From Gemmatimonadota bacterium (lineage in GTDB: Bacteria > Gemmatimonadota > Gemmatimonadetes > Longimicrobiales > Gaopeijiaceae), in contig JAPPNO010000034.1 of NCBI GenBank assembly GCA_028873845.1, positions 1 to 34,630 on the forward strand: DNA of 34,630 bases, given 5' to 3'. Position numbers and translations under genes: made by a program. A model generated the notes under the pieces. It saw only the letters and a list, made by a program, of their open reading frames with translations. It had not been told where the DNA came from and did no database searches. Below, one piece after another: positions 8,654 through 34,203 of the stretch (positions within the stretch are counted from its first letter, which is position 1; every line of letters starts with the position of its first letter).

Positions 8654-11600
8654 ATGACAGGTCTTGAAGGATTTGGGGGGACCATAGCCCTGGCGGTGGC
8701 GAGAGGTGTGCGACCTGCCGCCGGTCGCCTGCTCGTGCCCGGAGTGCTGTTCCTTGTCCTCGCGGTCGCCGAGGGTGCGTTCGCGGATGCGCAGCAACCG
8801 GGGGGCCCGGAAGAGAACGCACCGGTGCAGGGACCTCTCGACGAGACCCGGGACCGGTTGGACGAGCGCCTCAGCAGGCCGCCGGCAAACACCACCGACG
8901 CGACGCTGAGCGCACTCACCGTGGAGACGGTCGGTTCGGCAAGCGTCACCATCCGTCCGGCCTTTCACGCGGATTCCACCTCCTACCGCGCATTCGTCCG
9001 GAACGACACCGCGTCGATCATCGTCACCGCGACTAGGAATGACGGCAACGCGACGGTATCGATCGCGGACGATCCGGATACCTCCACTCCGGCCACGGCC
9101 ACGCTGGCGCTCACGGAAGGCGCCAACACGGTCACGGTCACCGTCACGGCCGAGGACGAGGTCACCACGCGAACCTACACGATCACGGTGGCGCGCGCGG
9201 CGGGCGCCCCGACGGCCGACCCGGAGGCGGTCTGGACGGCAAACCTGACCGTCGGCGTGAACGGGGACTCCCTGGGGTACAACAAGGCGGCCGGGACGGG
9301 CGCGCTGGCACCGCGGTCGTTCATGGTCGGGGACAGCACGTTCACGATGTCCCGGCTCGAGTACGTGCCCGCCTCCGAGTCGTTGCCGATCGAGTTCGAG
9401 GGATGGTTCCTGCTGAGTGCCATCCTGTACCTGGGCGAGTGGGGCGTGACCGCAACCCTCGACGACAAGGTTCTCGACTTCCGGGACGGCCTCCCCGACC
9501 TGCCCGCCATCGACTGGGCGTTCGGGGACGTGGTGCTCGTCAAGCTGTTCACCAATGCACCCGACAAGGTGACTGGCGTGCAGGTGACGTCGGGGAATGG
9601 ACAACTTGAGGTCATGTGGGACAAGCCACCGGCCGCGGAGGGGTACAAGATCCAGTGGAAGTCGGGTAGCGAGACCTTCGACGACGCCCCCGGGGACGGG
9701 CGCGAAGCGATCATCGACGACGAGGACACTACCAGCGACACGATTCCCGGTCTGACGAACGGCACGGAGTACATGATCCGTGTCATTGCGACGAACAATG
9801 TGGGTGATGGCGAGCCATCCGATGTCGCGAGTGGCGTGCCGCTGACGACCCCGGGGAAGGTGACGGGATTGACGGTGACGGATGGGGACGGTGGGCTTGG
9901 CCTGACGTGGACCAGACCGTCGCTGGCCTTCGGCTACAAGGTGCAGTGGAAGTCGGGGGGGCAGACGTTCAGCAATGCCGCCACGGACAACCGCGAGGAT
10001 GTGCTGCCGAAGGGGGACAGCACATCCCACAACATCACCGGCCTGGACAACGGGACCGAGTATGCGGTCCGGGTGATCGCGACGAACGCCGTCGCCGACG
10101 GTCCGCCCTCGGACGAGGCGACGGGCACGCCCGTGTCCTCGGACGCGACCCTAATGGCGCTCGCGCTCGCGACGGGTGGCTCCGCGAGCGTGTCGCTCAG
10201 TCCGGTCTTCCACCGGGATTCGACGGCCTACCGCGTGGTCGTTCACAACGACACGGCCACGGTCACCGTGACCGCGACGAAGAACGACGACGACGCGACG
10301 GTGGTGATCACGGACGATCCCGACGCGACCACGCCGGGCACGGCGACACTGGCGCTTTCCCAGGGCGAGAATGCCATCACGGTCACGGTGACGGCCGCGA
10401 ACACCGTGACGAAGAGGACGTACGCGATCACGGTGGTGCGCGCACGGGCCGCGCCCATGCCCGACCCGTCGGCGGCCTGGACGGCCAACCTGACGGTGGG
10501 GACCAGCGACGACGGCTCGGGCCGTCTGGGGTACCATGCCGCGAACGGCACGGGCGTCCTCGAGCCGGTGTCCTTCCAGCTCAACGACACCGCCCTCACC
10601 TTCAACCGGTTCGAGTACGACCCGGCGCAAAAGCGACTCCAGACGGGATATGTGGACCTCGACATCTTTACCGCTCTCTACTTCTTCCAGAGGGCGGGCG
10701 TGGTCATGCACCTCGGAAGCGTGGTCCTGGATTTGCGGGACGCGGTGCCGAGCGAAATCGATCTGGACTGGGCCTTCGGGGACGAGGTGCTCCTCAAGCT
10801 GTTCACGAATGTTCCCGAACAGGTGACCGGAGTCGAGGTGACCGCCGGAGACGGGCATCTCCGGGTGTCCTGGCAAAAGCCGAGGGCTGCCTGGGGATAC
10901 AAGGTGCAATGGAAGTCGGGAACGGAGAGCTTCGCCAACGCGGAAGCGGACGGGCGCCAGGCGATTCTCGACCACCCGGACAGCACCAGCCGCACGATCT
11001 CGGACCTTGCCAACGGCACGGAGTACATGGTTCGGGTCATCGCGACGAACGACGCGGGCGAGGCCGCGTCCTCCGACGTGAAGAACGGCACGCCAAACGC
11101 CCCGGTCACCGGCGATCTGCCCTGGTCCGCGACGATGACGGTCGGAAGCACCACCGGAAACACGCGCGGATACGACGGCACCGGAGGGACGCTGGACGAC
11201 GGCGATTTCGTCCACGACTCCGAGACCTACCAGGTCACTGCGGTACGGCTGGAGACGAGCAACGGCAACCTGGTCCTTCGCGTGGAGAACCAGGGTACGG
11301 GCCCCGACAGCCTCCCGGGCGCGCTGGTCTGGGAAGTCGCCGGTCTGGAACTGCCGCTGGACGAGATCACGACCAGCGCGTCCGACGGCAGATACCGGTA
11401 CAGCCAGAGTTGGCTGGCGACCAATGCCGCGTTCCTGCATCACACCAACGTCGGGCGGGCCGTACCGGTTGGGGCCGGGGTCACCGTGTGCCTGCGCACC
11501 GCGATGCCGGACTGTCCGGCCAATACCGCGGCCACCGGCCAGCCGCAGATCTCCGGAACACCGGAGGTGGGAGTCACCCTGACCGCCTCGACCGGCACGA

Positions 11601-13717
11601 TCACCGACGGCAACGGACTAGTCGGCGCGACCTACGGATACCAGTGGTTCCGTGTGGACGACTCGGACAACGAGACCGCCGTCGGGACGAATTCCGCTTC
11701 CTACGCGCTGGTGGCCGCGGATGCAGGCCACACGATCAAGGTGCGGGTGAGCTTCCTGGACGCGGGCGGCTTCGGCGAGATGCGCACGAGCGAGGCCACG
11801 AGCACCGTGGAGGCGGAGCCCCGGGGCGACCCGGCGGTGACCCTGCAGCCGAGGCAGGGAGAGGTTACCGAGGGAGACACGGTTCGCGTCCTGCTGCTCC
11901 TCGACCCGGTGTCGGCCTCGCAACTGACGGTCAGGATGTCCTGGAGCCAGGTCGGGTCGTTCTGGGCGGGCACGCCGCCATCGAGCGTGACGGTGGCGGC
12001 CGGGACGGCCGAAGTGGAGCTGGAGGTGCGCACCATCGACGACAACACGCAGGAGGACAACGGAAGCATTACGGCCCGGGTGCTTTCCGGCACCGGATAC
12101 GAGGTGTCCGACGACGAGTCCGTGACCACCGACGTGCTGGACAACGACTCGCCCTCGGGAATCTGCCGCAGGACCGCCCAAGTGCGCGACCGGATCCTTC
12201 TTCTGCTCAAGCATCGCCACAAGTACAAGGGCGACTGCAGCGGTGTGACGGACGCCCACCTGGCCAAGCTGAAGAGCCTGGACGTGATCGAAGCCGGCGT
12301 CACGAGCCTCCGCACGGGGGACTTCGCCGGCTTGAGCAACGTGACCGAACTGTCGCTGAGCGACAACCTGCTGACCGCGCTTCCCGCGGGGGTCTTCAAC
12401 GGGCTGGGCTCCCTCGAGGACCTCCGGCTGGGCGACAACCGGCTGTCATCTTCGCTCACCGGCGTGTTCGTGGACCTGCCCGCGCTGGAAAAGCTGACGC
12501 TCTACGACAACAGCCTGAACGACCTGCCTTTCGACGACCTGGAGAACCTGCCGTCGCTGGCGAAGCTCTACTGGAGCGGCAACCCGGGATACCGCTACGA
12601 GGTGCAGGTCTTCCCGTTGCGGCTGAACGTCGGCGCGAGCGACGTCCAGTACCGGGTTCGCCTCAAGCGCCCGCCCGGCTCCAGCGACGCGGTCGAGATC
12701 GCCCGGCACGCGCCCGGCGGGGTCAACGTGTCCCCGCAATCGCGGACGTTCGCGGACGACAACTGGTTCCGGTCGCAGACCTTCACGGTGGGCAGCATGA
12801 CGGCCGTGGGCGAGACGCGGTACGTCACCCATTTCGTTGACGCGGGCTCCTTCCGGGCCGACGGGATCGACAGCGTGGCGGTGACCAAGGTGGCGGGCAT
12901 GGTGGGTTCCTCCGAGGCCGAGGACCTGGCGCTTGCCGCCGGCCTGAGTCCGCAGGAAGCCGCGGCCGTCCTCTTCGGGGAAGCCGAACTCGACTCGGCG
13001 CGGCTCCGGGCGCTCGACCGGCTGGGCAACGGGAACGGGCGCTATGACCACGGAGATCTCATTGCCTGGGCCGACCGGTGCCGGCGTGGTGAGGCGGAGT
13101 GCGGCGGCTCCGGGGACTCCGGTCCCGGGGGGAACGCGCTGCCGTCGAAGGGGCGGGCCCGGAGTACCGGACGGAGACGCCGCGGCGGCGGGGACTGCGC
13201 GGCCGGTCACCCGCGTGACGGGTCGGGGACCGCCCCGAAGGGCCGCATGTCCGGTTGGGGACGGGCTGCGTTTGTCGTGGCGATGGCCGCGTGGGCGTGC
13301 ATGGGCGACGACCCCACCCGGCCACCCGCCGACGCGCCGCAGCCGGTCCGGGTGGACCAGCCGCCGGCGGGATTGCGCGGACCGCACGAAACGGCGCGGG
13401 TGCTGACGGTCGCACTGACGGCCCCGCCCCCGTCTCGCGCCGCCAGCGCCATGCTTCGTGTGGACGGCCCCGCGATCGATTCGTTGCGGGCACCCGGACT
13501 GACGATCTTCACGTCGGGTGCGTCATCGCCGGGGGGAAGAAGAGTGGTCGTAGCCGGCGACCTGTCAGCCGGAATCCTGCTCGAGATCCGGGTCCCCGCC
13601 GGGAGCGATGCCGCCGACTACAGCGTCGAGGTGCTCGAGGTCGCCGGCGAGGACTACGCGCTCCAGGATGTCGCGGGGTACTCGGCCTCGGTCTTCACAC
13701 CGATCCGCGGGCGCTAG
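8654..13717 (+). CDS. 1687-residue mosaic surface protein (cadherin-like, FN3, Ig-like, Calx-beta-like, LRR, EF-hand-like)
   Basis: A hydrophobic segment near residues 27-44 acts as an export signal. Modules in order: cadherin-like beta-sandwich (about 80-177), module X1 (193-295), FN3 (302-395), FN3 (399-495), second cadherin-like (496-596), X2 (606-720), FN3 (721-815), X3 (823-955), Ig-like (956-1053), Calx-beta-like (1058-1165), LRR (1169-1312), beta tail (1314-1416) and an EF-hand/dockerin-like loop, LGNGNGRYDHGD (about 1456-1467). A basic glycine-rich linker follows, then a second hydrophobic segment, GRAAFVVAMAAWAC (near 1536-1549), and a compact domain to the end. X modules start W(T/S)A-(N/T)-(L/M)-TVG and recur three times. 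Likely a secreted adhesion or binding protein; no catalytic motif seen. The second signal-like segment may mean a fusion of two ancestral genes or an internal anchor. Confidence 0.85.
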   Translation: MTGLEGFGGTIALAVARGVRPAAGRLLVPGVLFLVLAVAEGAFADAQQPGGPEENAPVQGPLDETRDRLDERLSRPPANTTDATLSALTVETVGSASVTIRPAFHADSTSYRAFVRNDTASIIVTATRNDGNATVSIADDPDTSTPATATLALTEGANTVTVTVTAEDEVTTRTYTITVARAAGAPTADPEAVWTANLTVGVNGDSLGYNKAAGTGALAPRSFMVGDSTFTMSRLEYVPASESLPIEFEGWFLLSAILYLGEWGVTATLDDKVLDFRDGLPDLPAIDWAFGDVVLVKLFTNAPDKVTGVQVTSGNGQLEVMWDKPPAAEGYKIQWKSGSETFDDAPGDGREAIIDDEDTTSDTIPGLTNGTEYMIRVIATNNVGDGEPSDVASGVPLTTPGKVTGLTVTDGDGGLGLTWTRPSLAFGYKVQWKSGGQTFSNAATDNREDVLPKGDSTSHNITGLDNGTEYAVRVIATNAVADGPPSDEATGTPVSSDATLMALALATGGSASVSLSPVFHRDSTAYRVVVHNDTATVTVTATKNDDDATVVITDDPDATTPGTATLALSQGENAITVTVTAANTVTKRTYAITVVRARAAPMPDPSAAWTANLTVGTSDDGSGRLGYHAANGTGVLEPVSFQLNDTALTFNRFEYDPAQKRLQTGYVDLDIFTALYFFQRAGVVMHLGSVVLDLRDAVPSEIDLDWAFGDEVLLKLFTNVPEQVTGVEVTAGDGHLRVSWQKPRAAWGYKVQWKSGTESFANAEADGRQAILDHPDSTSRTISDLANGTEYMVRVIATNDAGEAASSDVKNGTPNAPVTGDLPWSATMTVGSTTGNTRGYDGTGGTLDDGDFVHDSETYQVTAVRLETSNGNLVLRVENQGTGPDSLPGALVWEVAGLELPLDEITTSASDGRYRYSQSWLATNAAFLHHTNVGRAVPVGAGVTVCLRTAMPDCPANTAATGQPQISGTPEVGVTLTASTGTITDGNGLVGATYGYQWFRVDDSDNETAVGTNSASYALVAADAGHTIKVRVSFLDAGGFGEMRTSEATSTVEAEPRGDPAVTLQPRQGEVTEGDTVRVLLLLDPVSASQLTVRMSWSQVGSFWAGTPPSSVTVAAGTAEVELEVRTIDDNTQEDNGSITARVLSGTGYEVSDDESVTTDVLDNDSPSGICRRTAQVRDRILLLLKHRHKYKGDCSGVTDAHLAKLKSLDVIEAGVTSLRTGDFAGLSNVTELSLSDNLLTALPAGVFNGLGSLEDLRLGDNRLSSSLTGVFVDLPALEKLTLYDNSLNDLPFDDLENLPSLAKLYWSGNPGYRYEVQVFPLRLNVGASDVQYRVRLKRPPGSSDAVEIARHAPGGVNVSPQSRTFADDNWFRSQTFTVGSMTAVGETRYVTHFVDAGSFRADGIDSVAVTKVAGMVGSSEAEDLALAAGLSPQEAAAVLFGEAELDSARLRALDRLGNGNGRYDHGDLIAWADRCRRGEAECGGSGDSGPGGNALPSKGRARSTGRRRRGGGDCAAGHPRDGSGTAPKGRMSGWGRAAFVVAMAAWACMGDDPTRPPADAPQPVRVDQPPAGLRGPHETARVLTVALTAPPPSRAASAMLRVDGPAIDSLRAPGLTIFTSGASSPGGRRVVVAGDLSAGILLEIRVPAGSDAADYSVEVLEVAGEDYALQDVAGYSASVFTPIRGR
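8895..11100 (+). repeat. Imperfect tandem duplication of a cadherin-like/X/FN3 block inside the large exoprotein gene
   Basis: The stretch encoding residues about 80-395 (8895-9840) is repeated as residues about 496-815 (10140-11100), with an extra FN3 copy between them. The copies are recognisable at DNA and protein level. DATLSALTVETVGSASV corresponds to DATLMALALATGGSASV, and WTANLTVG and LDWAFGDEVL/IDWAFGDVVL occur in both. FN3 copies share the GYKVQWKSG and NGTEYMVRVIATN segments. This points to intragenic duplication rather than independent domain gain. Confidence 0.8.
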
Positions 13718-16933: not shown

Positions 16934-20953
<4,020 letters not shown>

Positions 20954-21305: not shown

Positions 21306-22316
21306 ATGAAGAAGAGCAACCCCGCACCGAACCCGTTCGGAATTGCGGCTCTGGACCTGTTCGCGTCGGCGCTGGGCGCCTTCATCCTGATCGCGGTCGT
21401 CATCTTCCCGATGATCGGGGAGGTGGTGCCCGACATCCCGGCCCCGCCCGCTCCGATCATCATGGCGGTGCCGACGCCCGACTCGGTGATCTGCCCGGTG
21501 TGCCCCACGTGCCCGGTCGTCGCCGCCGTTACCAAGCCGATCGACTGCCCGGTGTGCCCCACCTGTCCGGTCCCGGAACCCGTGCCGGAGACGATCTGCC
21601 CCGAAGTCGCCGTACCCGACCCCGTCGAGTGCCCGGTCTGCCCGCTGGTGCCCGCCCCGGTCATCTGCCCGGAGCCCGCTCCCGCGCCCATCCAGGTCGA
21701 CGCCCCGCACTTCCGGTTCCCCCACCTCGACATCATCGTCGCGCTGGATGTCACCAACAGCATGGGCGGGCAGATCGCCAAGCTGAAGGCGGAGGTTGAG
21801 CAGCTCGCCGTGCTTCTGAACCGGATCTCGCCCAGCTTCGGCATCGGCATGGTGGCATTCGGAGATCGGCGATGGGAGAGCCCGATGTTCCTGTTCCCGT
21901 TGCGGGAGCTCTCCGGTCCGGCCGCGAACCGCGATGCGTTCCGCACCTTCGTGAACGGCCTCTCGGTAGGCATGGGAACCGGGCGCGGTACCAATCCCGA
22001 CCAGCCCGAGGCCTTCTACGACGCGCTTGCGGCGGCGTCGCGAATGACCTGGCGGCCGCGATCCGAGCGAAGGGTCATCGTGCTGGTGACCGACAACCCG
22101 GCGTACAGCGAGGAGATCGATCGGTCCATACAGGCCGCGACCGGCATCGGACGACCGGAGGGACATCGCGTGTCGACGGTCTACGTCAAGACCGGGGGCT
22201 CGAACAACTCCGCCACGGAGGAGTTTCTTCGAAGCGTCGCCGAAGCCGGCGGCGGCCAGTACGTGCGCGACGTGGGAGGCTCGCTGACGGTCAACCTGCT
22301 TCTGTCCCTGTTCTGA
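21306..22316 (+). CDS. One-TM von Willebrand factor A protein with Cys-Pro linker; candidate motor B-subunit
   Basis: A 336-residue protein. A short basic, polar N-terminus precedes one helix (about 12-37) whose start reads ALDLFASALGAFILI; Asp17 sits where MotB, TolR and ExbD have the proton-binding Asp at the cytoplasmic side of their single helix. Residues about 40-135 form a Pro-rich linker with ten cysteines, including CPVCPTCP twice. The rest is a vWA domain: Asp148, Thr150 and Ser152 in DVTNSM form the first MIDAS motif, GTNPDQPEAF and TDNPAY (Asp263) supply the others. The domain should face the periplasm. The gene is convergent (9 bp) with the MotA/TolQ-like gene, which suggests partnership. 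It could instead be an ordinary membrane-anchored vWA protein. Operator site B lies upstream. Confidence 0.8.
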   Translation: MKKSNPAPNPFGIAALDLFASALGAFILIAVVIFPMIGEVVPDIPAPPAPIIMAVPTPDSVICPVCPTCPVVAAVTKPIDCPVCPTCPVPEPVPETICPEVAVPDPVECPVCPLVPAPVICPEPAPAPIQVDAPHFRFPHLDIIVALDVTNSMGGQIAKLKAEVEQLAVLLNRISPSFGIGMVAFGDRRWESPMFLFPLRELSGPAANRDAFRTFVNGLSVGMGTGRGTNPDQPEAFYDALAAASRMTWRPRSERRVIVLVTDNPAYSEEIDRSIQAATGIGRPEGHRVSTVYVKTGGSNNSATEEFLRSVAEAGGGQYVRDVGGSLTVNLLLSLF

Positions 22317-22325
22317 CCGGCCCCG

Positions 22326-23201
22326 CTACCGTCCGCCCGGACTCCGTTCCTCGTGCAGCCTGTTGGACAGATTGCCGAGGCAGTACTGGCCGATCCTGTT
22401 CAGGGCACCCTCTTCCTTCCCCCGCATGATGTGCATCGCGAACATCAGCACCGCCGATTGCAGGAGGGCGAGCAGGGTCGTGTAGAACGCGACCCCGAGG
22501 TCCCCGGTCAACTGCTCCATCATCTCGGGTCCGATCGTTCCGTCCATGATGCTGGCGCCGGCGAACATGACCCCGGCGGAGCGCATCGCGAAGGCGATGC
22601 CCAGCACGGTTCCGATGAAGCCGAGCGTCGGTATCAGCCAGATGACGTAGCGCAGCATGTTGTACCGCAACTCGATTTCATGCTGGTAGAGCTCGAGCGA
22701 CAGGTTCACCATCGAGTTGACCTGGTCCACCGATCCGCTGTTGCGGAACTGCAACAGGGCGCCGGTCAGCAGGCGTTGCAGCAGGTACCGCCTCTCCGGG
22801 TCGGACTCGACCACCCGCTCGTAGATCGGGGTAAGATCGCTCTTGCGCAGAATGGTCTCGTCGTCCTCGGGAAGCAGCCCGAGGTAGATCTGGTCGCCCT
22901 CCCGGCGGCCGGTGAAATGGCGCACCGCCAGCTCGCCGGCGGCCATGCAGAAGCCAAGCCACATCACATTCTGTATGGTGAACGGGTAGGGGAAGATGCG
23001 GGTGTTCCTGTCGACCAGCAGCTCGGCGCCCACGCTGTCGGCACCGGCGGGGAAGACGTACGACAGGGCCCCCACGAGGACGATCCCGGCCAGCAGGGAG
23101 ACGAAGAGAGTCACGGCCCGGAACGGTACCTGCTCGTCCCTCTCCACGGGTCGTTGCGGGGTGTGCGCCCGCTTCGGCGGCGCGTCCGCGTTGTCGCTCA
23201 T
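22326..23201 (-). CDS. MotA/TolQ/ExbB-family ion-channel protein
   Basis: A 291-residue inner-membrane protein with helices at about 27-50, 73-95, 183-206 and 234-257 and a large cytoplasmic section between the second and third. The diagnostic family segments are IPTLGFIGTVLGIAFAM in helix 3 and DLGVAFYTTLLALLQSAVLM in helix 4; these line the ion path in TolQ, ExbB and MotA pentamers. An upstream in-frame ATG exists, but the ATG at 23201 overlaps the stop of the preceding LRR gene as ATGA, so I take that start. It is the last gene of a three-gene, tightly overlapping operon. It lacks the long cytoplasmic tail of ZorA. It probably forms the stator with the one-TM vWA protein encoded opposite. 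Confidence 0.85.
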   Translation of the reverse strand: MSDNADAPPKRAHTPQRPVERDEQVPFRAVTLFVSLLAGIVLVGALSYVFPAGADSVGAELLVDRNTRIFPYPFTIQNVMWLGFCMAAGELAVRHFTGRREGDQIYLGLLPEDDETILRKSDLTPIYERVVESDPERRYLLQRLLTGALLQFRNSGSVDQVNSMVNLSLELYQHEIELRYNMLRYVIWLIPTLGFIGTVLGIAFAMRSAGVMFAGASIMDGTIGPEMMEQLTGDLGVAFYTTLLALLQSAVLMFAMHIMRGKEEGALNRIGQYCLGNLSNRLHEERSPGGR

Positions 23202-24679
23202 TGCCGCCCGCACTCGGGAAGGCGAACCCCGCCCAGCTGCGGATTGATGCCGGACTCGAAGCGCATCAGCGCCTTCGGTATGCACCCCGACAGGCGATTG
23301 TTGCTGAGCGTCAGCCGCTTGAGGTTGGTCAGGTTGCCCAGCTCGGGAGGGATCTGCCCGGAAAGCTGGTTGCCGCTGAGGGCGAGGAGCTCGAGGTGCC
23401 GCAGGTTGCCCAGCTCGGCCGGTATCCGGCCGGCGATCTCCGTACGGGACAGGCGCAGCCGCTTGAGGTTAACCAGGTTCCCGACTTCGGGCGGGATGAT
23501 CCCGGTCAGGGGGTTGTTGTACAGGTGCAGGTCCACGAGGCTCGAGAGCGAGCCCAGTTCGGCCGGTATCTCGCCCGACAGCTGGTTGTCTTCGAGGTAC
23601 AGCGCCTCGAGTTTGTCGAGCGCACCCAGTTCGGCCGGAATCGCGCCGGACAGCCGGTTTCCGCCCAGGTTGATGAGCTCCAGCTCCGTCAGGCGCGTGA
23701 GCCGCGGGGGAATCCCGCCCCCCAGATTCCGCCCGTTGAGATCGAGGCCCACGACGTTCTCGCCGCGCGACCGCACACCCGTCCAGGACCGACGATTCAG
23801 GGTAACGCGCCAGTTCAGGTCGCCGGTGGTCCCGGCCAGACCGCCTTTCGAAGCGAGGAGAAGCTGGTCGTCGGTGAGCCGCTCTTCGGCCCGTCGCTGC
23901 GCCGCCTCCAGGAGGTCGGCCTGTCGCTGCGCCGGGTCCGCCAACCGGGCGGCCGCGGTCCGGCGGGCCTCCTCCAGCCGTTCCTGCTCCGCCTGGCGTT
24001 CCTGCTCGGCCCGGCGCGCCTCCTCTTCCAGCCGTTCCTGTTCTGCCCGGCGGGCCTCCTCCGCGAGCCGCTCCTGCTCCGCTTGGCGGGCTTCCTCGGC
24101 CAGACGTGCCTCCTCCGCGATCCGGTCCATCTCCCGGCGGGCCTCTTCCGCGAGCCGCTCCTCCTCTGCCAGGCGGGCTTCCTCTGCCAGCCGCTGCTCC
24201 TCTGCACGCCGGGCGGAGTCGAGACGGGCCCGTTCCGCCAGCCGTTCCTCCCGGGCGATCCGGCGTTCCTCGGCGAGCCGCTGCGTCTCGGCTTCCAGCT
24301 CATCCCTGCGCCGCTGCTCCTCCGCCTCCGCCTCGGCCTGCCTGCCGGCCGCCACCAAATCCGCCAGGCTCGCGCGGTCCAGGTACCCGGTGGCATCGAT
24401 TCCGCGGTCCGCCTGCCATTCGCGGAGCGCCTCGCGGGCCTCGGGTTCCAGCACGCCGTCGGCGTCCCCGTGGTAGCGGCCCTCGGCGGACAGTCCCAGT
24501 TCCACCAGCGCAAGGACATCGGTGCCGAGGCCGAGCTGTGTCTCCTGAGCCGCGGCGAGCTGCTCGGGCGTGAGGGTCCGGTTCCGCGCGATCGAGACCA
24601 TGGCCGCCGCCATCCCCACGACCATGATGACGCCGGCCGCATAGTGGAGACGACGACGGCCTGCCCCGGGGCGGCGCAT
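23198..24679 (-). CDS. TM protein with peptidoglycan-binding-like domain, long coiled coil and plant-type LRRs
   Basis: A 493-residue protein (a GTG three bases upstream, overlapping the previous stop as GTGA, is an alternative start). A basic N-terminus and one helix (about 13-31) anchor it. Residues about 50-112 resemble a PG_binding_1 domain: LGLSAEGRYHGDADGVLEPE, then WQADRGIDATGYLD. Residues about 112-275 are an almost unbroken Glu/Ala/Arg-rich coiled coil with EEARLAEEERLAEEARR-type repeats. Residues about 310-480 contain leucine-rich repeats of the plant-like form NxLSGxIPxELGxL, about seven copies. It probably spans or measures the periplasm, gripping the cell wall while the LRR end binds a partner. 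The gene overlaps both neighbours, so all three products are likely made together. Confidence 0.8.
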   Translation of the reverse strand: MRRPGAGRRRLHYAAGVIMVVGMAAAMVSIARNRTLTPEQLAAAQETQLGLGTDVLALVELGLSAEGRYHGDADGVLEPEAREALREWQADRGIDATGYLDRASLADLVAAGRQAEAEAEEQRRRDELEAETQRLAEERRIAREERLAERARLDSARRAEEQRLAEEARLAEEERLAEEARREMDRIAEEARLAEEARQAEQERLAEEARRAEQERLEEEARRAEQERQAEQERLEEARRTAAARLADPAQRQADLLEAAQRRAEERLTDDQLLLASKGGLAGTTGDLNWRVTLNRRSWTGVRSRGENVVGLDLNGRNLGGGIPPRLTRLTELELINLGGNRLSGAIPAELGALDKLEALYLEDNQLSGEIPAELGSLSSLVDLHLYNNPLTGIIPPEVGNLVNLKRLRLSRTEIAGRIPAELGNLRHLELLALSGNQLSGQIPPELGNLTNLKRLTLSNNRLSGCIPKALMRFESGINPQLGGVRLPECGRQ

Positions 24680-25737
24680 CACCGGCTCCAGGCGAGACCG
24701 ATCTCGGTGCGGCCCACGACGCGCCTGACGAAGAGCTCAGGCCCCACCCGGGCGGCCGGAGCCCCCCGCGGCGCCGGCGACTCGACGACGCGTGAGATCG
24801 CCTCGATCTCGGCCATCTTCCTCGACCCGAGCACCCAATCGGCGGCGCCCCAGACTGCGAGCAGGCTTCCCACGCCGATGAACCACCTGTTCGCGGTTTC
24901 GGTCCGGTCCCGCCTGTGCACCGCGGACAGGTATTCCCACTCCGTATCGTAGTCCTCCCGCTCCGGGACACCCAGCCAGGGCAGCCACTTGACGGTCACG
25001 TAGGACCCACCCGCCATACCGGCGCCCCAGAGGAATTTCCTCTTCCCCGACCCGCGCCTCGCGGCGGCCTCCTCGTACTGCACCTCCAAAGCCGGATCGG
25101 CCAACGCGGGGAGCTCCCCTTCCATCGTCACCATGTCCCGGCTTCCCAGGATGTAGTCCGCGGCGCCCCAGGTGAGGAGACCAACACCGGCCAGCGTGAC
25201 GGCATTCCTGACGGTCCGCGCCGAGGAGTGCCTGTCAACCGCGGACTGATGGGAGGCCGAGTCCGCATAGGCTTCCTCGTCCCCCGCCTCGAACACGACC
25301 TTGGTTGTGGCGATGGCGATCGCGGCCATCGCCCCTCCCCAGAGCCATCTCTTCAAGCCCGACGACCGGCGCGCCTTCGATCTCTCGTACTGCACGTGGA
25401 TGTCCGGAATCCCGGCCCCCGTCATCGAGGGGTTCCCGCCGCCGGACGCGGCTCCCACGACCTCGACCTCGGAGGCCAGGACATATCCGATCAGGTCGTC
25501 CTCGCCGGGCTGCCCGGGGATCGACACGATGTGGTACGGACCGGACTCCCCGATCCAGTCGAGCGTAGCGCCCGGCGCCAGGTTGGCGATGACCGGGCTG
25601 GAATCGGACGGGTCGAGCCGGACGGCCGCGCCATCGCTGAGTGCCCGGACCTGTTGGGCCGAAGCGAAAGCGGGTGCTGCGAAGGAGACTCCGATGAACA
25701 TGATGCCAGCGCCGACCAGGCCGAGCTTCAGCTTCAT
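24679..25737 (-). CDS. SH3b-like exported membrane protein with internally duplicated helix pairs
   Basis: A 352-residue protein. The open frame extends to 25956, but the ATG at 25737 is followed by a clean signal sequence ending AFASAQ and is preceded by GAGGA. Residues about 28-95 look like an SH3b domain (ALSDGAAVRLDPSDSSPVI; GYVLASEVEVV). The rest is an internal duplication: residues about 115-205 and 219-310 each contain VQYE(R/E)-x-(K/A)ARR, a K/R-(W/F)-LWG helix, then WGAAD(Y/W)(I/V)LGSR after a second helix, giving four helices. I know no named family for this. It is the first gene of the SH3/LRR/MotA-like operon. Confidence 0.75.
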   Translation of the reverse strand: MKLKLGLVGAGIMFIGVSFAAPAFASAQQVRALSDGAAVRLDPSDSSPVIANLAPGATLDWIGESGPYHIVSIPGQPGEDDLIGYVLASEVEVVGAASGGGNPSMTGAGIPDIHVQYERSKARRSSGLKRWLWGGAMAAIAIATTKVVFEAGDEEAYADSASHQSAVDRHSSARTVRNAVTLAGVGLLTWGAADYILGSRDMVTMEGELPALADPALEVQYEEAAARRGSGKRKFLWGAGMAGGSYVTVKWLPWLGVPEREDYDTEWEYLSAVHRRDRTETANRWFIGVGSLLAVWGAADWVLGSRKMAEIEAISRVVESPAPRGAPAARVGPELFVRRVVGRTEIGLAWSR

Positions 25738-27011: not shown

Positions 27012-28032
27012 TCACATTCTGTCAGCGCCATCAGAAAGCCCGCCGTCCCTGGCCAGATTGAGCAGCTTCGGGAAGACCCACAGTGCGGCCCTACGCCCGG
27101 CGGGCGGGACGAGCTCCCGTAGAACGCCGCCCTCCCGCAGCACCGTCAGAACGCGGCGTGCCGTCGACGCCGGAGTCCCTGCGTTCCGCCCGAAGTCGGT
27201 GCTCGCAAAGATCGGCCTCTCGAACACCCAGTCCACCGCCAGCGTCGCGTACTGCGACCGGGTCATCCTGGGAATTCGGTTCCTCAGGTCGTCGTGCAGC
27301 TCCAATATCCCCTTCGCCTTCGCCAGGTTCTCCTCCGCCTGGGCGCGCACGGCCTTGAGGAAGAAGAGAGTCCATGCCGTCCAGTCGTGGTCGCGCGACA
27401 CCCCAAGGAGAGAGTCATAGTAGTCGTTCCGGTTTGCCTCCAGGAATCCGCTGACGTAGAGGTGCGGCCGCTCCATCATCTTCCACTGCCAGAGCAGCAG
27501 GGGGACGAGCATGCGGCCCAGGCGACCGTTCCCGTCCAGAAAGGGATGCAGCGCCTCGAACTCGGCATGGAGCACGGCTAACTGAACCAGGCGGTCCGGC
27601 ACACCGTTCGCGCCTTCGTTGGCATACCTTTCCCACCGGCCCATGGCATCCGGGATCTCGTGGGCGGCAGGGGGAACGAAGCGGGCCTCCTCGATTCCGC
27701 ACCCGGGGGGACCGATCCAGTTGGGCGTCTTCCGGTACTCACCCGGCGACTTTCCCGTCCCCCGCACGCTGTCCAGAAGCACTGCGTGGGCCCTGCGAAT
27801 CACGCGGCCGCATACCGGAAGCGTCTCCAGCATCAGCTCGGCCTCGTGCATCGCCCGGCGGTAGTTGAGGATCTCGTGGATGTCCTCCCGGCGCTCCGGC
27901 GACTCGGCGTCGGCCCCGGCCTCCACTTCCAGCACCTCGGTCATCGTCGCCTGTGTCCCCTCGATGCGCGACGAGAGCACGGTCACCCGTCGGTGGAAAC
28001 GCGCCCGCGTGATAGTGGACCGGAGGCATCAT
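27012..28032 (-). pseudogene. fic gene with 5' internal deletion and frameshift (core Fic domain intact)
   Basis: A good start exists at 28032/28029 (GAGGAGG before ATGATG), and its first residues PPVHYHAGAFPP match the start of Fic proteins of this type. After about 15 codons the frame is lost. The conserved core resumes in another frame at 27986 with SSRIEGTQATM, only 43 bases after the ATG at 28029, whereas family members have roughly 60 codons there. The 324-residue frame from GTG 27986 keeps the inhibitory motif (Ser5...Glu9-Gly10) and the AMP-transferase motif HPFLDGNGRLGR (His147). Fic enzymes transfer AMP from ATP to hydroxyl side chains of target proteins. Expression would need initiation at the GTG; otherwise it is dead. 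C-terminal winged-helix-like region is present. Confidence 0.75.
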
Positions 28033-28164
28033 CCGCCTCCTCGCCCTACCGTAGGGCTCACCAGTCGTTCTTGTCGGTCTATGGGGGCAATAGTGGGTGA
28101 CAACCGATCTTCTGGACGCTAGATTTGGCGAACTCAGGGCCCGGAGCGGGGCCATTGCAAACGC

Positions 28165-28176
28165 GGGGGGGGGGGG
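28165..28176 (+). repeat. Homopolymer of twelve G
   Basis: An uninterrupted G12 run in non-coding DNA, 114 bp left of site C and 326 bp before the AlbA_2 GTG. Such tracts slip during replication and can vary in length. Confidence 0.9.
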
Positions 28177-28289
28177 TGATTGAATTGGCATCGGCGGCTG
28201 ATCGGCTCGCCGGTGGGTCGGACGGGGTGCATTCGGAAAGCGACGTACGGCGTTCGAGTCAAGCATCGGGGTGCTGCGGGACAGGCTGT

Positions 28290-28327
28290 GTAATGTGAAG
28301 TTTCCAATGTGGAAACTGTACTTTACA
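28290..28327. promoter_or_regulatory. Shared 38-bp operator-like site C, upstream of the AlbA_2 gene
   Basis: Two dyads 21 bp apart, counted from the T at 28289: TGTAAT-N6-TTTCCA and TGGAAA-N6-TTTACA. The centre also forms an exact inverted repeat AGTTTCC-N5-GGAAACT. It is the most symmetric of the four sites. It lies 174 bp upstream of the AlbA_2 GTG and 257 bp from the old fic start. Confidence 0.6.
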
Positions 28328-28501
28328 TGGGGGGACGGGCGTGGCGTGTGCCGAGAATGACATTGATGAGGTTCCAAACCCGATGCCTTAGCTTGATTCG
28401 GTGAACCGGCCGGGAATGCCCGATGGAAGTTGGTCCGACATGTAGGTTGGACCATCGGCGAAGGTCCCCGCGCCACCGGAGCCACTCAGGGAGCAAGGGC
28501 C

Positions 28502-29731
28502 GTGTCTGTACACCTTTCGGAAGCCGAGATCCCAACAGCCCTCTCCCAGGGGGAAGGGCAGTTCCGCGAGTTCAAGTCGGCTTGGGACCGGAGTGCGGGC
28601 TCGCCCCGGAAGCTGAATTGGAAGACCCTGCGGGACAAGATCGCCGATGCGGTTGCGGCGTTCGCCAACGCGGACGGCGGCCTCCTCTTCGTGGGCGTGG
28701 AGGACGACGGACGTCCGAGCGGCCACGGCTACTCCGACAAGCATGTGGAGGGCCTGCTGGCGGTGCCGGACAGCCGGCTTCGGCCGGGAGTCCGCTGTAG
28801 GACCGCCCGAGTCGAGATCGATGGCAAGGAGGTGCTGGTGTTCGATGTGCCTCAGTCCACGGAAGCTGTCATGGTGGAGGCCGATGGCTTCCCATACCGG
28901 GTTGGTGCCGGGATTCAGCTGGAGCCGCAGGAACTGATCAACCAGCGGAAGCAGGCGCTGCGGGTGGTGGGCTACGAGCAGCGATTCCGGGCGGAGGCCA
29001 CACTTGATGACCTCGATCTGGAGTTGGCAGGCCGATTCCTGGACCGGACGCCGGTGGGCAAGCGCGCCATTGAGGAGGCCTTGGCGTACTACGGCCTGAT
29101 CGACCGCTACCTCGGGCAGTGGAAGATCACCAATGCGGGGCTCCTGCTTTTCGCTCGCCGCCCGGCGCTCAAGTGGCACCCGAGGGCGGGGATCAGGGTT
29201 TTCCGCGTCGCGGGAAGGAAGCGGCTCCACGGACGTCGGCGCAACGTGACGCAGGTCGGGCGCGCGGACCCTCCGCTGGCCTTGTCTCTGACGGAAGCCA
29301 GAGCACTGGCCGGGGCTCAGGTTCGGCAGAGCGAGCGGCTGAACGGGCTCTACTTCGAAGGCGTGCCGGAGTACCCGGAGTTCGCCTGGCAGGAGGTACT
29401 GGTCAACGCCATTGCCCATCGCGACTATGAGGTCACCAGCCGCGAGACGGAGGTCTGGTTCTACGACGACAGGGTCGAAATCTCCAATCCGGGGAACCTG
29501 ATTGCGCCCGTGACACTCGAGCGCCTCCGGGAGGGCGGTCGCGCCCACGGAACGAGGAACCCGATGCTCGTCAGGGTGCTGGCGGAGGTCGGCGCCATGC
29601 GGGACGAGGGAGAAGGCATCGCACGCATCTTCGACGAGATGGCAGACCGGCGGCTGCCCGATCCGGACATTGAGTGCGATAGCGGTCTGTTCACCTTCAG
29701 GCTCTTCGCGGAAGGGGGCGGTTCCGGGTAG
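28502..29731 (+). CDS. AlbA_2/Schlafen-type domain ATP-binding protein
   Basis: A 409-residue protein from GTG 28502 (AGGGAG nine bases upstream); a TTG at 28430 would add 24 residues but has no good ribosome site. The N-terminal AlbA_2 domain shows GEGQFREFKSAW, FANADGGLLFVGVEDDG and a following beta domain. The C-terminal half has the helicase-related/GHKL-like ATP-binding part: EVLVNAIAHRDYEV, DDRVEISNPGNL and MRDEGEGIARIFDEM. This architecture occurs in putative transcriptional regulators and in several anti-phage systems; the function here is unknown. It is convergent with the PD-(D/E)XK-like gene, six bases apart. Confidence 0.88.
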   Translation: MSVHLSEAEIPTALSQGEGQFREFKSAWDRSAGSPRKLNWKTLRDKIADAVAAFANADGGLLFVGVEDDGRPSGHGYSDKHVEGLLAVPDSRLRPGVRCRTARVEIDGKEVLVFDVPQSTEAVMVEADGFPYRVGAGIQLEPQELINQRKQALRVVGYEQRFRAEATLDDLDLELAGRFLDRTPVGKRAIEEALAYYGLIDRYLGQWKITNAGLLLFARRPALKWHPRAGIRVFRVAGRKRLHGRRRNVTQVGRADPPLALSLTEARALAGAQVRQSERLNGLYFEGVPEYPEFAWQEVLVNAIAHRDYEVTSRETEVWFYDDRVEISNPGNLIAPVTLERLREGGRAHGTRNPMLVRVLAEVGAMRDEGEGIARIFDEMADRRLPDPDIECDSGLFTFRLFAEGGGSG

Positions 29732-31767: not shown

Positions 31768-34203
31768 TCACGACACCGCCCTCCCCCGCACCCGCACCAC
31801 GAACAACCCCTCCCCCCAGCTCGACACCACCACAACCCCACTCTCAAAGAACGGGTAATTACTCCAAGCCCCCCCAAACGCCGGCAACCCCGCATCATCC
31901 GGCACCGTATCGAAGTACCCGATCTCCACCGGATTCTCCACATCGCTGATGTCCAGCACGCGCAGCCCGCTCATCAGGTTCGCCTGGTACAGCCGGTTCC
32001 CGCGCACGTACTGGTTGTGGTCGATCGTCCCCGTCTCGGCGAAGTGCTCCTTCAGCAGCAGCGGATCGTCCAGGTCGGCCACGTCCCAGATGAGCGTCCG
32101 GGTCCGCTCCACGCTGCCCTCCACCTCGTCCCCCTCGTCGCCCATGAAGAAATAGCGGTGGTCCTCGGTCAGCCAGCCCTGGTGCGCGTAGGCCACGTTG
32201 GGATACTCGCCGCGGGCGACGGCGACGGGGTTTTCGCGGTCGGTCACGTCGGCGATGCTGAGCGCGGTCTCGTTGGCGCCGAAGCAGATCTCGCGGCCCT
32301 GGTAGTCCTCGTCGGGACCCCGGTAGGTGACGCACTGGGGGTCGTGGGAGTAGCCGGTGCGCGCTCGGCCGGTGGTGCCGTCGGCGAAGCAGCCCAGGAA
32401 GACGGGCTCGGCGGGAGTGCGCACGTCGATCATGTGGAGGCCGCCGCCGCAGGTCTCGCCGCCCATGCTGCTGCCGACTGCGTACGCCGTCCCCGTCTCC
32501 TCGTTGATAACGATGTTGTGGGCGCTGTGGATGCCGTCGTAGCGGGCGGTCTCCGCGAAGGTGACGGGCGGGCCCGAGGCGTCCCGCAGTTGGGTGAGGT
32601 CGAAGATCTGCACGCCGTGTGCCCCGGCGCCGTCGGCGACGATGAAGGCGTGGTCGCGGTACACCTTGATGTCGCGCCAGAGGTTCTCGGTGGCGCCCTC
32701 GGTCAGGGGGAGTTGGCCGGCGTAGCGGGGGTTGGCGGGGTCGCTGAGGTCGACGAAGGCCGTGGCGTCGGAGCGTCCCACCAGCGCCCAATCCCTGCCG
32801 GTCACGGGGTCGGTCCAGCCCCAGATGTCGTTGAGGATGGTGCCCGGATCGGCGCCCAGCGCGTCGAGCGGCACGAAGGCGACCAGGTCGACCTGGGAGC
32901 AGTCGAACGGACCAGTCGCGCCGTCGGTGCAGGGGGCCTCCCCGCCCATGACCGCGTCGAGGGCGCGGGTGGACTCGCGCAGGGTGGTGCCTTCGACCCA
33001 GGCGCCGTCCTCGCGCTCGAAGACGACGGCGGCGCCGAGCCGCAGGTCCGCATTCGAGGCCGCGACCACCGCCACGTCGCCGCGCAGGGCGACGAAGGAG
33101 CCGAAGAGGGCGCCGCGGTTGAATCCGGGTGCGGGGATGGTGTTTTCGCTCTCCAGCGTCATGGCCCCCTCCACGACGCGGAAAACCTGTGTGCCGCCCG
33201 TGCCCTCGCCCGCTCCGCTCGCGCCGACCCATGCGCTGCGGCCGTCGAAGGCCACCGCCGAGCCGTAGCCGGCGGGGCCCGCCTCGGGGAAGAAGAGGCG
33301 GGCTGTCTCGTTCCACTCGCCGTCGTCGCTCCTGGTGAAACGGGCTGCCGCGCCCGCTCCCTCGTTCGCGCCGGGAGCCCCGGCGAGGACGGAGGTGCCC
33401 GACGCGGTCAGGCTTGTGCCGAAGGCGTCGCCGCCGCGGCCGTCGGAGAGCGACAGGACCGCGATGGGAGAAGGGCCGGTGGCCGGTGAGCCGGCGTCGA
33501 AGACGTGGACCGCGCCCCGGTCGTCACGGGTCCCGGGCGCTCCGACGAAGAGGAGGTCGCCGGTAAGGGAGAGGGACGCGCCGAAACGGTCGATGGCGGA
33601 GAGGATGGGGGAGGGGAGAAGCGTGGCGGACCCGCCTGCCGCCGGGAACCGCAGCACGGCGCCGGGGCCTGCGTCGGACGGCGCACCGAGGTAGACGGCG
33701 TCGCCGGAGAGCACGACGGAGGTACCCGCGCCACGGATCTCCCCGTCGGCCGGAGGCACGAACTCGATCGTCTGCGCCCACGCGCCATCGTTGCCCCGCT
33801 CGAAGATGTAGGCGCCGCCCCGATCCTCACCACGCCCCGGCGAGCCAACCAGCAACCGGTCCCCGTCGACCGCCAGCGCCGCCCCGAACTCGTCCCCGAT
33901 CTCCACATCGTCGCCCGTGATGATGTACGCGAACTCCCAGCCTTCGTCCCCTCGCTCGAACACGTAGACACTCCCCGGCGACGGGTAGATCGCACCCGCC
34001 ACCCCCCCGCCGGTCCGCCCCACGAAGATCTCCCCATCACCGATCGCGATCGCGGCCCCGAACCCGGCGGCCCTCCACGGCGCCTCGTGCTCGGGCGAAA
34101 AGGCCTGACCACCCAGGGGACCGGATGGCACGAGGAGCCCCACGGCACTCGAAACCGTGGCAAGAAAAACGCTCGTGGCGGACGAGAAGACTCTGGACCT
34201 CAT
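31768..34203 (-). CDS. Secreted FG-GAP / choice-of-anchor B family beta-propeller protein
   Basis: An 811-residue exported protein with a signal sequence (about 1-33). Residues about 40-410 hold FG-GAP-like repeats of the form FGAALAVDGDRLLVGSPG and FGASLSLTGDLLFVGAPG, an integrin-type propeller. Residues about 450-805 are a choice-of-anchor B domain: WGWTDPVTGRDWALVGRSD, LWRDIKVYRDHAFIVADGAG, GGETCGGGLHMIDV, CFGANETALSIADVTD and VAYAHQGWLTEDHRYFF. Such proteins are extracellular or cell-surface with unknown ligands. The start has AAGGGAG eight bases upstream. Operator site D lies 65 bp before it. Confidence 0.92.
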   Translation of the reverse strand: MRSRVFSSATSVFLATVSSAVGLLVPSGPLGGQAFSPEHEAPWRAAGFGAAIAIGDGEIFVGRTGGGVAGAIYPSPGSVYVFERGDEGWEFAYIITGDDVEIGDEFGAALAVDGDRLLVGSPGRGEDRGGAYIFERGNDGAWAQTIEFVPPADGEIRGAGTSVVLSGDAVYLGAPSDAGPGAVLRFPAAGGSATLLPSPILSAIDRFGASLSLTGDLLFVGAPGTRDDRGAVHVFDAGSPATGPSPIAVLSLSDGRGGDAFGTSLTASGTSVLAGAPGANEGAGAAARFTRSDDGEWNETARLFFPEAGPAGYGSAVAFDGRSAWVGASGAGEGTGGTQVFRVVEGAMTLESENTIPAPGFNRGALFGSFVALRGDVAVVAASNADLRLGAAVVFEREDGAWVEGTTLRESTRALDAVMGGEAPCTDGATGPFDCSQVDLVAFVPLDALGADPGTILNDIWGWTDPVTGRDWALVGRSDATAFVDLSDPANPRYAGQLPLTEGATENLWRDIKVYRDHAFIVADGAGAHGVQIFDLTQLRDASGPPVTFAETARYDGIHSAHNIVINEETGTAYAVGSSMGGETCGGGLHMIDVRTPAEPVFLGCFADGTTGRARTGYSHDPQCVTYRGPDEDYQGREICFGANETALSIADVTDRENPVAVARGEYPNVAYAHQGWLTEDHRYFFMGDEGDEVEGSVERTRTLIWDVADLDDPLLLKEHFAETGTIDHNQYVRGNRLYQANLMSGLRVLDISDVENPVEIGYFDTVPDDAGLPAFGGAWSNYPFFESGVVVVSSWGEGLFVVRVRGRAVS

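Follow-up and report, generated by a model that had tools for sequence, protein, structure and literature searches.

Four genes at positions 21306 to 25737 of a 34,630-nucleotide stretch of DNA from a Gemmatimonadota bacterium (Longimicrobiales, Gaopeijiaceae; assembly GCA_028873845.1, contig JAPPNO010000034.1; the whole stretch is referred to here as the window) encode a channel of the MotA/TolQ/ExbB type, a membrane-tethered von Willebrand factor A (vWA) protein, and two further envelope proteins. Flagella, iron uptake, outer-membrane constriction, gliding, and phage defense all run on ion-driven 5:2 motors, and an earlier assessment made from the letters alone (the sequence-only reading) had proposed that this channel and vWA protein form a new motor of that kind. 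All four open reading frames (ORFs) were confirmed at the positions that it gave, as follows.

21306..22316, plus strand: candidate B subunit, a vWA protein of 336 amino acids with a transmembrane (TM) helix, Asp17, a Pro/Cys-rich linker, and a vWA domain (Pfam VWA, 7.1e-6)
22326..23201, minus strand: A subunit, a MotA/TolQ/ExbB-type channel of 291 amino acids with a TolQ-like fold, Thr198, and Thr242 (PF01618, 3.8e-9)
23198..24679, minus strand: protein of 493 amino acids with a TM helix, a PG_binding_1 domain (1.3e-6), a coiled coil, and plant-type leucine-rich repeats (LRR_1, 5e-23), referred to as the LRR protein
24679..25737, minus strand: secreted SH3-like protein of 352 amino acids with two duplicated TM-hairpin units (SH3_3 at 0.0026, below the cut-off; signal peptide; hydropathy)

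The channel and vWA genes are convergent, and their stop codons lie nine bases apart, as had been described. Four-base overlaps had also been described throughout the three-gene operon that the channel gene ends; this holds for the LRR and channel genes (ATGA), while the SH3 and LRR genes overlap by one base (TGATG) if the LRR gene starts at the same ATG as in relatives, and by four only if an upstream GTG is chosen. All four genes are under purifying selection (ratio of nonsynonymous to synonymous substitution rates, dN/dS, 0.07-0.48), and every complete relative locus holds the four together; the locus is therefore not a chance assembly.

The assignment of the channel to the MotA/TolQ/ExbB family was upheld by Pfam (PF01618, over the cut-off) and by structure. 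Its start is best placed at ATG 23201; GTG 23285 was disfavored as a start codon, as the ATGA overlap and the relatives support the ATG. An extra N-terminal TM helix (residues 27-49) precedes the TolQ-like core. When the structure model of the channel (predicted local distance difference test [pLDDT] score of 73) was compared with solved folds, TolQ was nearest (8odt_A; Z 14.4, root mean square deviation 3.7, 213 residues aligned), followed by ExbB (Z 13.3), ZorA (Z 11.5), and PomA/MotA (Z about 9-10). A sequence profile of the channel gave no match to PDB chains at E 1, and the link to solved structures is thus made through the fold search only. Thr198, within a GTVxGI motif, and Thr242 are invariant in 26/26 aligned channels of this type, and the same motif of an ExbB-type channel from the same genome lines up with them; we take these positions to be the pore threonines of TolQ/ExbB. 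No ExbD or TolR gene was found near the window locus. The same genome carries three ExbD genes and three other channels, all elsewhere, and the window locus therefore represents an extra system.

In the vWA protein, the sole Pfam match is the vWA domain (over the cut-off), and no OmpA-like domain was found by the same scan. A single TM helix (residues ~19-37) directly follows Asp17, which is invariant in the aligned vWA proteins and belongs to the pore-helix motif FGxAALDLFASALGAFIL. The placement of this Asp at the start of the helix had been noted, as had a vWA domain with a metal ion-dependent adhesion site (MIDAS); the MIDAS-type residues D148, T150, S152, E235, and D263 are all invariant within the domain (~140-336). 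In a profile search of the PDB it matches integrin beta I-like domains best (1.4e-6), and vWA folds rank first in a structure search with the protein model, from which only the overall vWA fold was used, not details. Between helix and domain lies a Pro/Cys-rich linker (~40-135), and all ten Cys of the protein fall within residues 63-121 (window 21492-21668), forming a stalk of CPVCP-type Cys/Pro repeats. This stalk is Cys-rich in the window and coiled-coil-like in many relatives; both forms would be suited to holding a dimer, and the CPVCP-type repeats are possibly a disulfide staple of a vWA dimer.

Two positions in the complex have been proposed for such proteins. TM-tethered vWA proteins of the Idiomarina type have been put forward as the dimeric axle of TolQ-like pentamers, with AlphaFold 3 predictions placing their helices in the pore, and side-binding vWA transducers resembling TolA/TonB have been proposed for other bacteria (PMC12204202; Mol Biol Evol 2025, msaf138). 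The second arrangement would have the vWA protein transmit force from the side of the pentamer while a separate TolR-like dimer occupies the pore, and the LRR protein does resemble TolA in plan (TM helix, long helix, C-terminal domain). However, a TolR or ExbD gene is missing from the neighborhood, and the vWA helix carries the pore Asp but not the Ser/His (SHLS) motif. The LRR protein was itself considered as the TolA/TonB-like transducer and rejected, as no Ser/His pair is conserved in its TM helix either. We regard a side-bound vWA transducer as very unlikely. The vWA protein is instead very likely the B subunit, because the two genes co-occur (see below), Asp17 and the Thr pair are invariant, no ExbD/TolR gene is near, and the same pairing has been published elsewhere; the sequence-only reading is borne out in this respect, although the idea itself had already been predicted in that work.

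Co-occurrence was scanned in 59 relatives and then in 395 Gemmatimonadota genomes, with a channel threshold of E below 1e-12. The channel was found in 20 of the 395 genomes, and the vWA gene lies in the same locus in 20/20, with one vWA gene per complete locus; co-occurrence in relatives, on which the sequence-only reading had been staked beforehand, was thus observed. Channel and vWA genes are linked in each of three gene orders. In the window clade, the two are convergent. In the second order, SH3, LRR, channel, and vWA genes follow one another on one strand with a 3-bp gap between channel and vWA (L055 and L107), and L105 is similar with an extra LRR gene. The third places the vWA gene first, followed by two SH3 genes, the LRR gene, and the channel gene on one strand (L056-L058, L108-L110, and L112). 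The SH3/TM gene is present in every complete locus and is duplicated in genomes G006, G018, and G021. Directly downstream of the channel in G018 lies a gene (L057:175-4509) whose 1444-amino-acid product combines many LRRs with bacterial Ig domains and an M66 peptidase domain. A more distant vWA/pore-helix protein occurs in G024, where an FHA gene follows the vWA gene.

Named records with the locus are Gemmatimonadota/Longimicrobiales metagenome-assembled genomes, and their isolate names suggest that the uncultured bacterium of the window is probably a sponge associate. One locus (L107, JAPPJO010000066.1) was deposited under a gammaproteobacterial name, and horizontal transfer was considered; it was rejected, since L107 matches the place found in G252, a genome assigned to the window's own family, and the deposited name is probably wrong.

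Proteobacterial loci were collected from a genome scan, a plasmid search, and class-level scans in Gamma- and Alphaproteobacteria, and were picked by the channel alone. The channel relative is strong in 14 of these loci and weaker in another 8, which fit the type already published; this is a small sample with several short contigs. Plasmid searches gave one true relative, on a Rhizobium plasmid, and distant matches in Anabaena and Microcystis. The Anabaena match (L138, plasmid pANACY.03) is a distant MotA/TolQ/ExbB-family gene with type III-B CRISPR genes on one side and a viperin gene on the other, a hint of another defense-linked channel.

Most proteobacterial loci encode a protein whose first ~38 residues match the pore helix of the vWA protein; the Rhizobium protein, for example, shares 47% identity with it (hhalign, 4e-12) over those residues only. 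The remaining domain is a vWA domain in L169, L171, L178, L179, and L182, and a non-vWA periplasmic part with a VDLHV/VDIDLGV motif and no clear Pfam family in L114 (7968-8564), L137 (6787-7524), and L183 (3094-4643). Loci without a pore-helix protein (L168, L170, L175, L180, and L181) are all cut by contig ends, and the motif stands beside every channel of this type except near such ends. It is absent from 3/3 canonical ExbB loci, and a scan of 2873 ORFs returned only 2 chance-like matches. The same pore helix is kept beside the same channel while the periplasmic domain varies, which fits the expectation for a helix bound within a pore. Phylogenetic analysis placed the pore-helix-associated channels in one group apart from canonical ExbB/TolQ (support 100/100), with the Gemmatimonadota clade inside it; long branches make the deeper order unsure.

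These data also bear on whether the channel and vWA genes are neighbors by chance with no joint function, as their convergence in the window clade and the restriction of the exact gene set to one phylum might suggest. Given that the pair co-occurs in 20/20 genomes and stays together in three gene orders, in one of them 3 bp apart, and that the pore helix is conserved beside related channels in Proteobacteria, we consider chance adjacency extremely unlikely.

The strong proteobacterial loci carry a second shared feature. FHA, PP2C, Ser/Thr kinase, or trypsin-FHA genes lie near the channel in 13 of the 14, the FHA gene usually directly upstream of it, and the channel is part of operons with FHA, PP2C, Ser/Thr kinase, and trypsin-TM-FHA genes in L113, L114, L137, L168-L171, and L178-L183. 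The 8 weaker loci together showed a single kinase, and that at a distance, and no gene of this module was found in 3 canonical loci. As the loci had been picked by channel alone, the association is not circular. Judged by gene content, the proteobacterial operons look like a phosphorylation-controlled motor. In the window clade, no FHA, PP2C, kinase, or trypsin-FHA gene was detected.

A kinase also figures in the history of the LRR protein. The window protein has one TM helix (residues 13-31), PG_binding_1 and LRR_1 matches that are both over the cut-off, and a coiled coil of ~160 residues, and it had been taken for a generic wall anchor. Its homologue in L058, a complete genome, instead reads kinase-TM-PG_binding-coiled coil-LRR (Pkinase, 7e-18), and the kinase is 44% identical to that of L169. 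The L058 kinase is probably a pseudokinase, because the VAIK Lys is replaced by Thr, HRD by HLD, and DFG by GFG. In L056, L057, and L109, only a remnant of the kinase N-lobe is left on the homologue, and the protein has no kinase part in L055, L105, and the window clade. These domain architectures identify the LRR protein as the ectodomain of a TM receptor Ser/Thr kinase that lost its kinase in the window clade; the proteobacterial operons suggest that the kinase is ancestral and was not gained in one lineage. Because the ectodomain has outlasted the decaying kinase, it likely serves this locus in the envelope itself and not through phosphotransfer. Wall anchoring through PG_binding_1 is plausible, and the protein is likely the wall-bound partner of the motor, ahead of other candidates. 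The remaining operon member had been described as an SH3/four-TM protein; a signal peptide and about four TM stretches were found, three of them clear by hydropathy, and the SH3-like match falls below the Pfam cut-off.

The receptor ancestry of the LRR protein, the signaling genes in 13/14 proteobacterial loci, and the FHA gene that follows the vWA gene in G024 would all suit a different reading, in which channel and vWA protein form an ion-powered signaling device, a sensor or gate that reports the state of the wall or of a ligand through the PG-binding/LRR protein, by an FHA, PP2C, and Ser/Thr kinase route in the proteobacterial relatives and by another route here. We think this unlikely, although it deserves more weight than the side-bound transducer: the kinase appears inactive in L058, survives as a remnant in L056/L057/L109, and is missing from the window clade, yet purifying selection still maintains the ectodomain; none of the signaling genes was detected in that clade; and signaling may simply control a motor.

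Overall, we consider it probable that the channel and the vWA protein constitute an ion-driven 5:2-type motor with a vWA axle and the LRR protein as partner, a reading that is well supported but unproven. Several observations weigh against it. The window-clade channel is transcribed from the strand opposite to the vWA gene; the counts are not independent, as 18 of the 20 genomes belong to one genus; G009 and G016 have the vWA gene without the channel, though both matches lie near contig ends; the monomer model of the vWA protein is poor (mean pLDDT 46); and the contact proposed between vWA and LRR proteins is read from gene linkage only. Because of the shared genus, the changes in gene order are a stronger argument for a functional pair than the genome counts.

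In the proposed motor, five channel subunits would surround the two helices of a vWA dimer in the inner membrane. Passage of protons (or other ions) by Asp17 and the ring of Thr198/Thr242 would turn or pull the vWA axle, whose vWA domain, held in the periplasm on the long Pro/Cys-rich stalk, could use its metal site to work on a ligand. The natural partner would be the co-encoded TM/peptidoglycan-binding/coiled-coil/LRR protein, a receptor kinase without its kinase, which may hold or sense the wall and present its LRRs further out in the envelope; the SH3-like/TM protein would be an accessory envelope component. Given the PG-binding domain and the reach of the LRRs, our best guess for the output is wall-coupled force or envelope remodeling.

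A broader and more tentative scenario, which we hold possible and somewhat less likely than not to be correct in full, extends this motor to the whole group. In Proteobacteria, an FHA/PP2C/receptor-kinase/trypsin-FHA module with ectodomains for sensing would run ion motors under phosphorylation control, and load domains would be exchanged on a pore helix that stays constant; Gemmatimonadota would have lost the kinase, and the PG-binding/LRR ectodomain would now serve as the mechanical, wall-bound partner of the vWA axle. A constant pore helix with a swapped working domain, beside genes for kinases, phosphatases, and phosphopeptide-binding proteins, points to Ser/Thr phosphorylation as a means of controlling such motors. 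Methylobacterium variabile and Rhizobium leguminosarum are cultured hosts of relatives in which the function of the motor could be learned.

Elsewhere in the window, an ERG4/ERG24 sterol reductase family gene (19814-20953; Pfam, 6.6e-35) adjoins the locus. Adhesion-type proteins are encoded at 8654-13717 (1687 amino acids, cadherin-like/fibronectin III/LRR) and at 31768-34203 (FG-GAP repeats), and a Fic family gene lies beside a Schlafen/AlbA-type ATPase-like gene at 27012-29731, possibly a mobile or stress module.

Among known systems, the window locus shares with the MotAB/PomAB flagellar stators the channel superfamily, a pore Asp where the B-subunit helix begins, and peptidoglycan binding within the system; unlike in those motors, the B subunit has no OmpA-like domain and the peptidoglycan-binding motif resides in a separate protein, and the channel is nearer to TolQ (Z 14.4) than to MotA/PomA (Z about 9-10). 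With TolQR(A) and ExbBD(-TonB) it shares the channel fold (TolQ Z 14.4, ExbB 13.3) and the pore Thr motif. It differs from them in the extra N-terminal TM helix of the channel, in the vWA domain that stands in place of the ExbD/TolR periplasmic domain, and in having no TolA/TonB-type transducer alongside. Zorya ZorAB is likewise related through the channel (ZorA, Z 11.5), but the window channel has no long ZorA tail and there is no OmpA-like ZorB. A PADLOC scan of the four proteins gave only a weak ZorA match for the channel (7.5e-4) and none for the other three, and a Pfam scan of the main flanking genes revealed no recognizable ZorB, ZorC/ZorD, or ZorE. A defense function found no PADLOC support beyond that match, and no defense genes were recognized among the four.

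Bacterial receptor Ser/Thr kinases with wall-binding ectodomains are known, PASTA kinases among them. The L058 homologue of the LRR protein resembles these in joining a cytoplasmic kinase, a TM helix, and a peptidoglycan-binding ectodomain; unlike PASTA kinases, it carries PG_binding_1, a coiled coil, and LRRs, its kinase is degenerate or lost within the group, and it is encoded with a motor channel.

A literature search, mostly without subscription journals, found no report of the Gemmatimonadota subfamily or of the PG-binding/LRR and SH3 partners, none of load-domain swapping over a constant pore helix, none linking TolQ-like channels with FHA/PP2C/kinase genes, and none describing Ser/Thr phosphorylation as a control on such motors. 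The closest published systems, the TPH-vWA/TolQ-like pairs, occur mainly in Proteobacteria and Verrucomicrobia and mostly with vWA pairs, a tendency and not a requirement (PMC12204202). Like them, the window locus sets a TolQ-like channel beside a TM-tethered vWA protein with a pore-helix Asp and without tolR/exbD. In loci that we matched to the published type by description (L172-L177, L185, and L186), the channels are more distant (60-75 bits), the helices are of the FSLSFLDxMSCGFGA type as opposed to LDLFASALGAF, and some loci have two vWA genes; the heterologous vWA pairs were not encountered in Gemmatimonadota, where each complete locus has a single one. The window type differs further in its PG-binding/LRR and SH3 partners and its occurrence in Gemmatimonadota, and its proteobacterial cousins carry FHA/PP2C/kinase modules that published-type loci almost entirely lack. 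Set against the description of the published vWA-axle systems, the window system appears to be a separate subfamily, of which the lineage, the wall-binding partner derived from a receptor, and the link of its relatives to phosphorylation appear to be new.

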